Position numbers and translations under genes: made by a program. From positions 1 to 37,041 of the forward strand of contig JAIPDT010000009.1 of the NCBI GenBank assembly GCA_021737545.1: a DNA stretch of 37,041 nucleotides. Direction: 5' to 3'. Position 1 is the first letter of the stretch. Every line of letters starts with the position of its first letter. This stretch comes from Desulfobacteraceae bacterium. GTDB taxonomy: Bacteria > Desulfobacterota > Desulfobacteria > Desulfobacterales > Desulfosalsimonadaceae. Below, one piece after another: positions 22,548 through 28,310 of the stretch. The notes under the pieces are model-generated. The model was not told the DNA's origin and ran no database searches. It saw nothing but the letters and a program-made list of their open reading frames with translations.

Positions 22548-23327
22548 TCATGATGCGCTTTGTATTTCCATTATTTTATTCATCATCGAAGTTCTGTTCC
22601 TGACCCCTAGTTTGGTGTATATTTTTTGAATGTGTTTCTTTACCGTTACCTCTGAAACAAATAGTTTTTTGGCTATTTCGGAGTTTTTCAGGCCCTTAAA
22701 TACATGTTCAGCCACCTCGGTTTCCCTCCTGCTTAAATTGAAGTTCTGCAAAACATCACTTCGTTTACTCGAGATATCGTTTAAACATATTTTTCTTTGA
22801 AGCTCATTTAAATAAAGCGCATGGGCCAGGTAGGGAGTGACGGCCCGGGCCAATCTGATTTCGTTTTCCGAGAAGCACGGAGAACCTGCACCCCTTGTAA
22901 GCGCCACCTTGCCGAGTATCCCTTCCATGGTCCCCAGGTATGCCAACAATTTATAGTGAATTCGCTGTGGTCTTAAAAAATCATTGTAATATTCAGTGGA
23001 AACCATGCTGTCATAGGATATGCTCCGTGCCATTGAAGCCCGGCTCGTTCTTTGAGGCTTCCTGATAAGCTGCAGAGGGTCAAATTTACAATAATACTTT
23101 TTGAACCTTTGATTAAAAGTTTCATCAAGATTATTTATTATCGTATTTGAAAGGTTTCCGGCCTCATCCGGCAGAAAAAAAACCGCTCCCTCATGATCAA
23201 ATGTCTCCAAATATAAATTTAAGACTTTTTGCCTCACAAGATCGCGGTCTAAAGAGCTGTTGGCGGTATGAATAACATCCAGCACCTTGTCAAATATAGG
23301 CAAGTAAGATATTTTCATTATAACCAC
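22548..23327 (-). CDS. LuxR-family transcriptional regulator with N-terminal sensor-like region
   Basis: C-terminal HTH FNLSRRETEVAEHVFKGLKNSEIAKKLFVSEVTVKKHIQKIYTKLGVRNRTSMMNKI. Confidence 0.92.
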   Translation of the reverse strand: MVIMKISYLPIFDKVLDVIHTANSSLDRDLVRQKVLNLYLETFDHEGAVFFLPDEAGNLSNTIINNLDETFNQRFKKYYCKFDPLQLIRKPQRTSRASMARSISYDSMVSTEYYNDFLRPQRIHYKLLAYLGTMEGILGKVALTRGAGSPCFSENEIRLARAVTPYLAHALYLNELQRKICLNDISSKRSDVLQNFNLSRRETEVAEHVFKGLKNSEIAKKLFVSEVTVKKHIQKIYTKLGVRNRTSMMNKIMEIQSAS

Positions 23328-23412: not shown

Positions 23413-23532
23413 ATAAGAAAAGTGTTAAAATTAAATGTATAATCAGAAACTTTTATAATTAGAATCCCCGTTTTATTGTATACAGTATCCCATTATCCTT
23501 TTACTTCGTCAATAAGTATTTTTATTTTGCCC
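23413..23532. repeat. Dispersed direct repeat copy 2 (promoter/operator-containing), upstream of the luxR-type gene
   Basis: Near-identical to 12972-13100; minus-strand TTGACG (23507-23512) and TGTATACA (23477-23484). Confidence 0.85.
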
Positions 23533-23533
23533 A

Positions 23534-23748
23534 CTAACCAGGATTTTTCTTACCCTGTTCGGGTTGATCACTCTCGTCCTCGGCCTGGGGATGGGCAACC
23601 TCAGATTTGACCATTCCATTGAAGCCTTTATGCCCAAAAGCGAGCCCGCATACATGGATTACGAGAAGGCCCGGGAGACTTTCGGCGACAACAGCCGCTA
23701 TCTCATAATGGCCGTAAGTCATGAAAATTTGTGGTCTCATGAGGCGTT
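23534..23748 (+). pseudogene. RND-superfamily (MMPL-like) exporter N-terminal fragment, truncated at both ends
   Basis: In-frame LTRIFLTLFGLITLVLGLGMGNLRFDHSIEAFMPKSEPAYMDYEKARETFGDNSRYLIMAVSHENLWS matches the TM1/periplasmic start of RND exporters (LRFD.SIEAF.P). No credible start; homology ends around 23745. Confidence 0.7.
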
Positions 23749-23801
23749 GTCCTGCGGCCCGAATAAGATGAGCTCTGATCGGGGGGAGGAGTTCAATGCT
23801 G

Positions 23802-24749
23802 TTATTTCTTGACAAAGTTTGAGAAAAGTACTGCGTAACCGCTGTCGAATTCATACAGGCTTTTTTCCGGGCGGCGGTAGCCGGAGATTTTTTTCGGCAG
23901 TTTCCCTTCGCCCGGATCACGGTCCGAGACAGCTTCGGTAAAGACGAGGGTAAAGCGACCGGGCCTGAAGATTTCCGTTATCTGCTCAATCCGGTCTTTG
24001 TAGTCGGCTTCGGGAGCATTGGTCTCAAAGCTGGCATAAGATCCTGATTCCTCGGGCGTGACATGGATGGTGACGTAATGTTCCCCGGAAATGCGGTTCA
24101 TGGAATAGCCGTAGGGCTTGAATACGAAGCTGTCATTTGTCATTTCCGGATAGAGCCGGTCAATGCCGGTTTGTGCCTCGATATCCGCGGAGCTTTCTTC
24201 TGCCCGGGGGATGAAAGCCTTGAGTACCGAAGGGTCAAGCTCGTGCATCAACAGCTCGAGTGTTTCGTCTTCGTCTTCTTCCGGGGCAGGCACGCCTTGT
24301 TTTTCAGGTGCGGATGCGTAAAAGATATGTACATGATCGTAGTTTGCAGGGCCGAGCCTATAGCTTTTGCCGGTAAAGTGTTTTGCAAGGCCCGCCACGT
24401 CCGCTTCAAAATCCGCATTCTGAGCGTTTGGGTACATCAGGCTTTTTCGTTCATAAAAGAAAAAACCGATTCTGTCCTGTTTCAGGGTGCGGATCAGTTC
24501 AGGCACGGCTTTTACCAGGGTGGTTTTGCCGCAGGTGATCATAAGAACCCGGTCATCCCAGACAAACAGGCTGGATTCTGAAAGCAGGTACGCGTCCATT
24601 TCCGGCGAAGAGATGCTGCTGACGATCTCCGCGCCGCTGGCATGCACAACGGCATCCCATCTGCCGTCCGCATTGGAGCGCAGTTCGGGATCCGGTTCCG
24701 ACAATATTAGCTCAAGCTTTTTTTCCGGGCCTTCAAATTCAATACCCAT
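23802..24749 (-). CDS. speD: S-adenosylmethionine decarboxylase, eukaryotic (AMD1/SPE2-like) pyruvoyl type
   Basis: MGIEFEGPEKKLELIL; AYLLSESSLFVWDDRVLMITCGKTTLVKAVPEL; FFYERKSLMYPNAQ; DETLELLMHELDPSVLKAF; FVFKPYGYSMNRISGEHYVTIHVTPEESGSYASFETN; aligns by eye over nearly its full length to eukaryotic AdoMetDC. ORF extends to 24791; start at 24749 preferred (AGGTG RBS). Confidence 0.92.
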   Translation of the reverse strand: MGIEFEGPEKKLELILSEPDPELRSNADGRWDAVVHASGAEIVSSISSPEMDAYLLSESSLFVWDDRVLMITCGKTTLVKAVPELIRTLKQDRIGFFFYERKSLMYPNAQNADFEADVAGLAKHFTGKSYRLGPANYDHVHIFYASAPEKQGVPAPEEDEDETLELLMHELDPSVLKAFIPRAEESSADIEAQTGIDRLYPEMTNDSFVFKPYGYSMNRISGEHYVTIHVTPEESGSYASFETNAPEADYKDRIEQITEIFRPGRFTLVFTEAVSDRDPGEGKLPKKISGYRRPEKSLYEFDSGYAVLFSNFVKK

Positions 24750-24769
24750 GTAATCACCTGCACAATATT

Positions 24770-24894
24770 GATGGCAAAGTAAAAAGTCCAATATCTGCGT
24801 TGCGCTGCATCCCTTCGGAATTTCACGTACGATTAAGTACGCTGCATTCCTCGGGATTTGCGCGCCTTGATCTTGAACTTTTTACTTTGCCATC
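24770..24894. repeat. 125-bp foldback element with 18-bp perfect terminal inverted repeats
   Basis: GATGGCAAAGTAAAAAGT (24770-24787) pairs with ACTTTTTACTTTGCCATC (24877-24894). The interior is also an imperfect palindrome with apex CGTAC-GATTAA-GTACG. Confidence 0.85.
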
Positions 24895-25117: not shown

Positions 25118-26671
25118 ATGCAGATTCGATTCTACGGTGCGGCAAGAGAGGTCACGGGTTCTATGCACATGCTGGAGACCGAGCAGGACCGTATACTTCT
25201 TGACTGCGGACTGTTTCAGGGAAGGCGCAGGGATGCGGACCGGAAAAACCGGGGGATGCCGTTTTCTCCGGATATTATAGCAAACGTTATTCTTTCGCAT
25301 GCCCATATCGATCATTCAGGCCGGATCCCGCTTTTGACGAGCAACGGCTTTACCGGTCAAGTGTTTTGCAACCGGGCCACGGCAGATGCCTGTGAATACC
25401 TTTTGCCCGACAGTGCTCATATCCAGGAATCCGATGCGGATTATTTGAATTACAAGAGGGTTCGCGAGTCGCTGGCGGAATTGACCGGCAAAAACCGTGA
25501 GGAGATAAAAAAAAAGCTCAAAAAAAACGGGCGCACCGATTCTGATGCGCTTGATCGTTATATGAGGTATTATGGTATAGAAAAAACAGAGCCATTATAT
25601 ACTTCAAGCGATGCTGAGCAGGCCCTTACCCATTTTGCAGGTCAGCCCTACCGCCATCCCGTAACCGCCGGGCGGGGCATGGAATGCGTGTTCTATGATG
25701 CAGGCCATATCCTGGGCTCTGCCATTACCATGATCCGGGCCCAGGAAAACGGCCGGGATTTCCGTGTTTGCTATACCGGGGATATCGGTCGGTTTGACAA
25801 GCCCATCATCCGGAATCCCGAGCTTGACTTCGAAGAGCAGGACCGAAAGGTCGACCTGATGCTAATGGAAAGCACCTACGGCAACCGGACCCATGAGCCG
25901 GTGGCGGACATGACCCCGCATTTAAAAAGGATAATCACTGAAACCGTGGAGCGGGGCGGCACGGTTCTGATCCCCGCCTTTGCCTTCGGCCGCACCCAGG
26001 AGCTGCTGTATGCCATCCACGAACTCTACAACAACAACGAGGTCCCAAAAGTGCCCATTTACGTGGACAGCCCGCTTGCCACGCGGATTACCCGGGTATA
26101 CGGCGAGCACCCCGAGGTATATGATCGTCAGACTCACCTGGATTTTCTCCGGGAAGGCATGAATCCCTTCATGTTCGATCATCTGCATTTCACGGAATCC
26201 GTGGAAGAGTCCATGGCCCTGATGCGGGAAGAAAAGCCCCACATTGTGCTGTCTGCCTCCGGCATGTGCGAAGGCGGCAGAATACTCCATCATTTGCGCT
26301 ACAAGATCCACAACGAGAAAAATACCATCCTGATCGTCGGTTACATGGCGGCCCACACCCTGGGCAGAAGGCTTCTGGAAAAGGGGCTGGAATACGAGGA
26401 CGGCGGCAGGCAGGGAGATCCCCCCATGATGAGGTTTATGAACAAGGAGTATCCCTTGAAGGCCAGGGTTGTAAGCCTGGAGGGCTTTTCCGCGCACGCG
26501 GACAGAGATGAAATCCTGCGGTTTTTGAATGAATCAAACCTGCAGGTAAAGCGCATAGCCCTGGTCCACGGCGAGGAGGACCAGATGGATTCGTTTGCCG
26601 GAACCCTGAAAAAACAGGGCTATGAAGTTTTCGTCCCCAGGCGGGGAGAAGGCCTGAGGATTCGCAAATAA
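25118..26671 (+). CDS. Metallo-beta-lactamase/beta-CASP RNase (CPSF/RNA exonuclease family)
   Basis: MQIRFYGAAREVTGSMHML, LSHAHIDHSGRIPLL, DAGHILGSA, YTGDIGR, LMESTYGNRTHEP, ASGMCEGGRILHHL, GFSAHADRDEI, VHGEEDQMDSF. AAGGAGG RBS. Confidence 0.94.
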   Translation: MQIRFYGAAREVTGSMHMLETEQDRILLDCGLFQGRRRDADRKNRGMPFSPDIIANVILSHAHIDHSGRIPLLTSNGFTGQVFCNRATADACEYLLPDSAHIQESDADYLNYKRVRESLAELTGKNREEIKKKLKKNGRTDSDALDRYMRYYGIEKTEPLYTSSDAEQALTHFAGQPYRHPVTAGRGMECVFYDAGHILGSAITMIRAQENGRDFRVCYTGDIGRFDKPIIRNPELDFEEQDRKVDLMLMESTYGNRTHEPVADMTPHLKRIITETVERGGTVLIPAFAFGRTQELLYAIHELYNNNEVPKVPIYVDSPLATRITRVYGEHPEVYDRQTHLDFLREGMNPFMFDHLHFTESVEESMALMREEKPHIVLSASGMCEGGRILHHLRYKIHNEKNTILIVGYMAAHTLGRRLLEKGLEYEDGGRQGDPPMMRFMNKEYPLKARVVSLEGFSAHADRDEILRFLNESNLQVKRIALVHGEEDQMDSFAGTLKKQGYEVFVPRRGEGLRIRK

Positions 26672-26906: not shown

Positions 26907-27365
26907 ATGTTCAGAGGGAGTTCATTTCATACAATCGATGCCAAGGGCCGCATCAATATTCCCTCCCGGTTCAGGGAACTGATCCGGAACAACGGAGGAA
27001 ACGGGCTTGTAATTTCCGGCCCCGGTCTTGAGGAAAAGGGCCTGGTCGCCTATCCCTACAAGAGCTGGGAGGCGGTCGAGGAGAAAATCCTCCAGATGGC
27101 GGAAAAAAGTTCGGCCATGAGGCGTTTCAGGCGTATTTTTATCGGCGAATCCTCCGAGTGCCCCCTTGACAGGCAGGGCAGGATACTGATTCCTCAATCC
27201 CTCAGAAATTATGCAAATCTGGAAAAAGATATAGTGCTGGTAGGCGTGCTTGATCATTTTGAAATCTGGTCGCTGGAAAACTGGAATGAAGAAAAACGCA
27301 AGCTGCGCGAAGAGGATATGGAAAATGAGGAGGTCTCCAACGAAATTGCCAGACTAGGATTGTAG
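26907..27365 (+). CDS. mraZ: Transcriptional regulator MraZ
   Basis: MFRGSSFHTIDAKGRINIPSRFRE...ECPLDRQGRILIPQSLRNYANLEKDIVLVGVLDHFEIWS; first gene of the dcw cluster. Confidence 0.97.
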   Translation: MFRGSSFHTIDAKGRINIPSRFRELIRNNGGNGLVISGPGLEEKGLVAYPYKSWEAVEEKILQMAEKSSAMRRFRRIFIGESSECPLDRQGRILIPQSLRNYANLEKDIVLVGVLDHFEIWSLENWNEEKRKLREEDMENEEVSNEIARLGL

Positions 27366-27368
27366 GCC

Positions 27369-28310
27369 ATGGCTTATAAACATGTTCCCGTAATGCGCGA
27401 AGAAGCGGTCCATTACCTGAACTGCGCACCGGGGAAACGGGTGGTCGACTGCACCCTGGGCGGGGCGGGCCATGCCATGGCCATAGTGGAAAGGATTCTT
27501 CCCGACGGACTGTTAATAGGTATTGATCAGGACTACGCAGCGATAAAAAACGCAGAGCGCAGTCTTTTGCCCCGGGCGGAGAATATCCGTCTGATAAATG
27601 ACAATTTCGTGAATCTTTCCGATATCCTCTTTTCTCTTAAAGTCGATGAAGTTGATGGTATTCTGGTTGATTTGGGGCTTTCTTACGATCAGATTGAATC
27701 TTCGGGCAGAGGCTTTTCTTTTAGAAAAGACGAGCCGCTTGACATGCGAATGGATCCGCAGAATCCGCAAAAAGCAGCCGATATCGTCAATACTTTCGAG
27801 GTAAGGGGCCTGACCCGGATTTTCAGGGAGATGGGCGAGGAGCGTCAAGCCGGACGCATTGCCCGGAAAATCGTTCAGCGCCGCAAAACCGCCTCCATTG
27901 AAACCACCGGACATCTGGCCGAAATCGTGTGCCAGGCTCTCGGCCCCAAAGCGGCTGCCGGAAAAAAAATTCATCCTGCAACCAGAACGTTCATGGCGCT
28001 TCGCATAGCTGTCAACAGGGAGTTGGAGGTGCTCGACTCTTTTCTCAATGACGCGGTGGCGCATTTAAAGCCGGGGGGAAGGATATGCGTTATTTCGTTT
28101 CATTCCCTGGAAGACCGGATCGTAAAGCGTCGTTTCAACGATTTTGCCAAGGGATGTCAGTGCCCGCCCGATTTTCCGGTGTGCGCCTGCGGCAAACAAC
28201 CCGTGTTAAAGGTGTTGACCCGAAAAGTCAGGCGGCCTTCCGCGGCCGAAATCCGTGCAAATCCCATGTCAAGGAGCGCTAAGCTCAGGGCCGCCGAAAA
28301 ACTGCAATAA
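27369..28310 (+). CDS. rsmH: 16S rRNA (cytosine(1402)-N(4))-methyltransferase RsmH
   Basis: HVPVMREEAVHYL, DCTLGGAGHA, GIDQD, VDGILVDLGLSYDQIESSGRGFSF, LDMRMD, SFHSLEDRIVKRRF. Confidence 0.97.
   Translation: MAYKHVPVMREEAVHYLNCAPGKRVVDCTLGGAGHAMAIVERILPDGLLIGIDQDYAAIKNAERSLLPRAENIRLINDNFVNLSDILFSLKVDEVDGILVDLGLSYDQIESSGRGFSFRKDEPLDMRMDPQNPQKAADIVNTFEVRGLTRIFREMGEERQAGRIARKIVQRRKTASIETTGHLAEIVCQALGPKAAAGKKIHPATRTFMALRIAVNRELEVLDSFLNDAVAHLKPGGRICVISFHSLEDRIVKRRFNDFAKGCQCPPDFPVCACGKQPVLKVLTRKVRRPSAAEIRANPMSRSAKLRAAEKLQ

Follow-up and report, generated by a model that had tools for sequence, protein, structure and literature searches.

The S-adenosylmethionine decarboxylases (AdoMetDC) closest to the gene studied here belong to class 2, the eukaryotic type represented by human AMD1 (PF01536; PDB 1msv and 1jl0). 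Class 1a and 1b SpeD (PF02675), the bacterial type, catalyse the same reaction but are half as long as the protein described below and resemble it only remotely in fold, as in the T. maritima enzyme 1vr7. Two AdoMetDC-like domains in one chain, as in class 2, also occur in SpeD-SpeDC fusions (PMC10407285), which consist of two class 1b domains, are matched by PF02675 and not PF01536, and form a separate lineage. A candidate fusion of this kind, a 276-aa chain with two PF02675 stretches (L107:1036-1866), was seen in the order Desulfobacterales, to which the present genome belongs. For eukaryote-type enzymes in bacteria, as here, PMC10407285 cites Li et al. (Biochem J, 2019), and with reference to that study it states that class 2 appears to be a eukaryotic invention whose bacterial copies were acquired from eukaryotes. 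The same paper notes that this model fits an Asgard/alphaproteobacterial origin poorly.

The window, a stretch of 37,041 nucleotides, is contig C136 of a 2.64-Mb draft genome, 93% complete, assembled from a metagenome (MAG) and assigned to Desulfobacterales (G000). Positions 23802-24749 are interrupted by stop codons when read on the plus strand and form a single open frame of 315 aa plus stop when read on the minus strand.

23802..24749, minus strand: class 2 AdoMetDC proenzyme, 315 aa, with ATG at 24749 and stop at 23802 (PF01536, human AMD1, AlphaFold model).
24754..24759, minus strand: AGGTGA, read in the sequence just 5' of the ATG and probably the ribosome-binding site for this gene.

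By its sequence, the 315-aa ORF is a class 2 (eukaryotic-type) AdoMetDC, with a match far beyond chance. The Pfam search gave PF01536 at 6.6e-83 and 279 bits (gathering cut-off 22.2), spanning positions 3-342 of the 343 in the profile, and the bacterial-type PF02675 at 14.6 bits, under its cut-off of 25, so that the protein falls outside class 1a/1b SpeD. A phmmer search of the PDB matched human AMD1 at 3.2e-47 over ORF residues 5-315, and the homology is full-length at 34-36% identity. The first-pass annotation had proposed a eukaryote-type enzyme at these positions over nearly its full length and named a comparison of the two profile families as a check; both the assignment and the coordinates hold, on the minus strand. 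The ORF scored under the NCBI equivalog cut-off of TIGR00535 (208.2 vs 233.15 bits). The four further bacterial class 2 proteins scored against the model missed it too (134-194 bits), its tuning on eukaryotes being the presumed cause; the shortfall weakens the label of annotated equivalog, not membership of class 2. The gene has a GC content of 52% and a GC3 of 59%, similar to its neighbours. The AlphaFold model (pLDDT 89.3, pTM 0.90, from 39 sequences) predicts a single chain that joins two AdoMetDC domains and folds like the human enzyme, and its best PDB match in Foldseek was human AMD1 1msv (TM 0.89, 2.5 Å, 323 columns), 1vr7 being a remote match (E 4e-4).

The window protein was aligned with 79 other bacterial sequences and the human, potato and T. 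brucei enzymes. Its Glu6, Glu9, Glu58-Ser59, Cys73, Ser216, His229 and Glu233 correspond to human Glu8, Glu11, Glu67-Ser68, Cys82, Ser229, His243 and Glu247 and are all identical, in keeping with the motifs picked out by eye in the first-pass annotation. The roles in cleavage, processing and catalysis given below are those we take to be established for AMD1.

24573..24578, minus strand: codons Glu58-Ser59 (human Glu67-Ser68), predicted self-cleavage site with Ser59 becoming the pyruvoyl group, invariant in 80/80 bacterial sequences.
24531..24533, minus strand: codon Cys73 (human Cys82, catalytic proton donor), invariant in the alignment.
24102..24104, minus strand: codon Ser216 (human Ser229, processing), invariant in the alignment.
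24063..24065, minus strand: codon His229 (human His243, processing), invariant in the alignment.

The position of human Glu247 is not a family invariant because more than half of the bacterial relatives have Gln there. In the window protein this ribose contact is retained, together with the substrate-stacking Phe7 and Phe223 (human numbering). The processing and catalytic residues are thus shared with AMD1, whereas Cys226 is replaced by Tyr and the positions that we take to form the putrescine site differ: Lys80 is Ile, Ser113 is Glu and Phe285 is Thr. The position of Lys80 is hydrophobic in 80/80 bacterial sequences (Ile, rarely Leu or Met) and is also Ile in T. brucei. Human-type activation of the window enzyme by putrescine is therefore doubtful.

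The remaining steps of a spermidine route were found on another contig of the same genome, C143, all above curated cut-offs.

C143:31852-32733: the one strong spermidine synthase (speE) of the genome, above two equivalog cut-offs (TIGR00417, 305 vs 249.55 bits).
C143:8411-9055: pyruvoyl-dependent arginine decarboxylase (121.9 vs cut-off 106.95 bits).
C143:9148-10086: agmatinase, directly after the arginine decarboxylase (203.6 vs cut-off 174.3 bits).

The only protein in the genome matching the PLP ornithine/arginine decarboxylase fold was lysA-like and no OKR decarboxylase was found there, so putrescine most likely comes through arginine decarboxylase and agmatinase. With speE and the window AdoMetDC, every step from arginine to spermidine is filled. 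The genome profile search found no PF02675 protein in this genome or the rest of the genus, and the window gene is the only source of decarboxylated S-adenosylmethionine found in the genome; PF01536 carriers among the relatives also lack PF02675, G030 excepted. The earlier observation that the gene has no polyamine neighbours is right for the window proteins tested against Pfam and NCBIfam (a set with a minority of the genes after 28.3 kb), among which no other polyamine gene was found, but it does not extend to the genome, as the genome-wide search for speE and speD that it had called for made clear. Among 40 related genomes, speE of at least 190 bits was present in 15 of the 18 with PF01536 vs 3/22 of those without it, and these three encode class 1b SpeD instead. 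Three PF01536 genomes lack a strong speE: two of them have a completeness of 62% and 83%, while in G006 two contigs carry speE-like fragments.

The analysis shows the sequence with its residues, the predicted fold, the co-occurrence of the genes and their synteny, and from these we infer cleavage, activity and pathway flow: the window gene very probably encodes a functional class 2 AdoMetDC that serves ordinary spermidine synthesis. Cleaving itself between Glu58 and Ser59, the proenzyme would yield two chains, of which beta is short and alpha longer, and the pyruvoyl group that caps the alpha chain would decarboxylate S-adenosylmethionine. The product would pass to the spermidine synthase encoded on C143, which would aminopropylate the putrescine that the arginine decarboxylase and agmatinase of that contig produce from arginine.

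Linkage to speE was scored wherever the sequence continues for 900 bp or more downstream of the class 2 gene. In 52 of the 75 scorable loci, from both of the bacterial clans described below, speE lies downstream of the class 2 gene on the same strand within 600 bp, at spacings of up to about 300 bp, and in several families of the order the pair often adjoins mraZ/rsmH. The pair is intact in G001 (L025), a member of the window's own genus. In G008 the two genes share a contig at a distance of about 8.4 kb, and the gap holds an MMPL exporter that is convergent with AdoMetDC. This exporter also comes next after AdoMetDC in G004, with speE further along that contig. The window has speE on a separate contig (C143 vs C136) and keeps part of this exporter.

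23522..23812, plus strand: N-terminal remnant of an MMPL-type exporter, about 96 residues, convergent with AdoMetDC, 74-77% identical to L026 and L028/L103.

The fragment alone had no Pfam match and was identified only through its relatives, whose intact exporters match PF03176 (MMPL) and adjoin AdoMetDC within the genus. Since it matches the exporter that splits the pair in relatives, it is best read as a scar of the splitting events. On these gene orders, the separation of AdoMetDC and speE is recent and within the genus, by exporter insertion; an ancestral class 2 speD-speE pair beside mraZ/rsmH would have received the exporter at genus level, and a later rearrangement would have split the pair. 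On the other hand, speE was not found beside the class 2 gene at L067, L069, L072, L076-L078, L085, L091 and L100 (Myxococcota, Ferrimonas). Since some clan A loci (most Myxococcota, and Ferrimonas) lack an adjacent speE, spermidine synthesis need not be the task of all bacterial class 2 genes, and the genes listed are candidates for another role or for an unlinked speE.

The other neighbours of the gene are as follows.

22548..23327, minus strand: LuxR-type regulator downstream of the AdoMetDC gene (PF00196, 1.4e-16).
24770..24894, no strand assigned: foldback repeat of 125 bp, its terminal inverted repeats 26 bp long, placed 20 bp upstream of the AdoMetDC start codon.
25118..26671, plus strand: beta-CASP metallo-hydrolase, divergent from the AdoMetDC gene (PF10996, 2.1e-40), kept across genus and family by synteny.
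26907..28310, plus strand: mraZ and rsmH (PF02381, TIGR00006), with which the dcw cluster begins; by synteny, they anchor the locus in several families.

The foldback repeat is MITE- or REP-like and probably breaks the assembly. At least 40 copies of 94-100% identity occur in this genome (among them C119:983-1107 and C29:18769-18893), several at contig ends, and the element is uninformative about the AdoMetDC gene because it is so widespread. Models of type VII Cas14 and archaeal aCPSF1 matched parts of the beta-CASP protein, both far under cut-off.

The class 2 gene is carried by 9/9 genomes of the genus, 18/40 relatives and 41/293 genomes drawn from the order, the nearest named relatives being Desulfobacteraceae and Desulfobacterales MAGs at 74-79% protein identity. 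Its place, divergent from the beta-CASP gene and near mraZ/rsmH, is the same throughout the genus wherever contigs reach, and the beta-CASP and mraZ/rsmH context recurs in another genus of the family (L030-L032). Elsewhere in the order mraZ/rsmH lie nearby without the beta-CASP gene (L047, L048, L057, L058, L060, L061, L064). Independent MAGs have the gene at this position, in synteny with mraZ/rsmH, which places it in a real bacterial genome, as had been supposed. A long-held location with many losses is more likely than several insertions at the same site, and local lateral acquisition is thus not supported. The first-pass annotation had read such acquisition from the exporter fragment and the foldback element, which turn out to be the MMPL remnant and a genome-wide repeat, while close relatives keep speE directly downstream. 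Inheritance through the group with speE adjacent, which it had set against its own reading, largely describes what was found, but the gene is patchy in the order, a pattern that loss or exchange of the AdoMetDC-speE pair may account for. Two class 2 genes were seen in G004 (L006/L021 and L019/L026), which lie on different contigs and branch apart within the genus clade; a duplication, a transfer or a mixed bin would account for them.

The origin of class 2 bears on the history of the gene and is compatible with a spermidine function. A scan of 85,462 species genomes returned 263 stretches encoding relatives, and the best 80 of the 263, examined by title, carry eight phylum names: Desulfobacterales, Spirochaetota, Myxococcota, Bdellovibrionota, Elusimicrobiota, Acidobacteriota, Planctomycetota and Ferrimonas. 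The family found here under these eight names is mostly paired with speE. A scan of viral contigs found no relative, in agreement with the published absence of class 2 AdoMetDC from viruses (PMC9992855). Potato and T. brucei sequences for the tree came from the PDB and the human sequence from two PDB mutant entries with the wild-type residue restored at the mutated sites, other Arabidopsis and T. brucei sequences serving as search queries only. The phylogeny that had been proposed as a check yielded two deep bacterial clans, with human, potato and T. brucei as a third clan joining between them in the best tree (98/81). With a single eukaryote in the tree, however, human fell in clan B, potato in clan A and T. 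brucei between, and AU tests rejected none of the alternative placements (p 0.30-0.41). In view of the three discordant placements and the AU results no direction of transfer is claimed; the eukaryotes are only three and their branches very long, so the tree does not separate eukaryote-to-bacteria from bacteria-to-eukaryote transfer. Within the Desulfobacterales clan, the tree nests the AdoMetDC-speE pair of Spirochaetaceae MAGs (L034-L036, L038). Transfer between bacterial phyla is the probable explanation, with mis-binned contigs as the other, and such exchange between bacteria probably occurs.

A transfer between domains, possible for class 2 genes, is already the published view (PMC10407285, where it cites the 2019 study). 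We consider it somewhat probable that the gene passed anciently from a eukaryote to bacteria and then spread among them with speE, as the patchy presence in the order and the scattered phyla suggest; against it stand the two deep bacterial clans in place of a single shallow one, and the position of the eukaryotes as one clan between them, the latter tempered by the conflicting single-eukaryote trees and AU tests. We rank this above the reverse, the rather unlikely reading that class 2 arose in bacteria within a speD-speE pair and that eukaryotes inherited it from a bacterial partner. Desulfobacterales, the order in which a candidate SpeD-SpeDC tandem fusion was also seen, would then fall within the source clans.

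Other roles for the gene are far less probable than ordinary spermidine synthesis. A repurposed homologue decarboxylating ornithine or arginine, which the first-pass annotation had raised, has precedent in the substrate shifts of class 1b SpeD documented in many phyla, and speE is not adjacent in the window; yet the published screen for neofunctionalised SpeDA/SpeDC looks for homologues whose genome lacks speE or encodes a second SpeD (PMC10407285), and here speE is present and a second SpeD absent. With the full arginine-to-spermidine pathway in the genome, no class 1 SpeD making the gene redundant, an arginine decarboxylase already in place and the contacts at Phe7, Phe223 and Glu247 kept, such repurposing is very improbable. 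Going by its title, a Biochem J paper of 2019 reportedly deals with a polyamine-independent role of an AdoMetDC gene cluster. Linkage of AdoMetDC with PspA/CesT-Tir and ATP-grasp glutathionylspermidine-synthetase-like genes has been described (PMC11237479), but no such partner was found among the window proteins tested against Pfam and NCBIfam, and the spermidine-pathway partners in the genome and the linked speE of relatives make a role of this kind just as improbable. Recent lateral gain by this strain or eukaryotic contamination, suggested by a family otherwise typical of eukaryotes and by the flanking repeat and broken exporter, is scarcely credible given the bacterial kin, typical GC and one uninterrupted frame, and is ruled out for the genus, all nine genomes of which carry the gene, by synteny wherever the contigs reach.

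Bacterial class 2 AdoMetDC is already known (PMC10407285), and the window gene adds a member whose expected function is ordinary. Its value is evolutionary and concerns whether eukaryotes were the source of such bacterial genes or received them; a bacterial class 2 family that is deep, linked to speE and placed beside the dcw cluster in Desulfobacterales is material for testing the claim of a eukaryotic invention.
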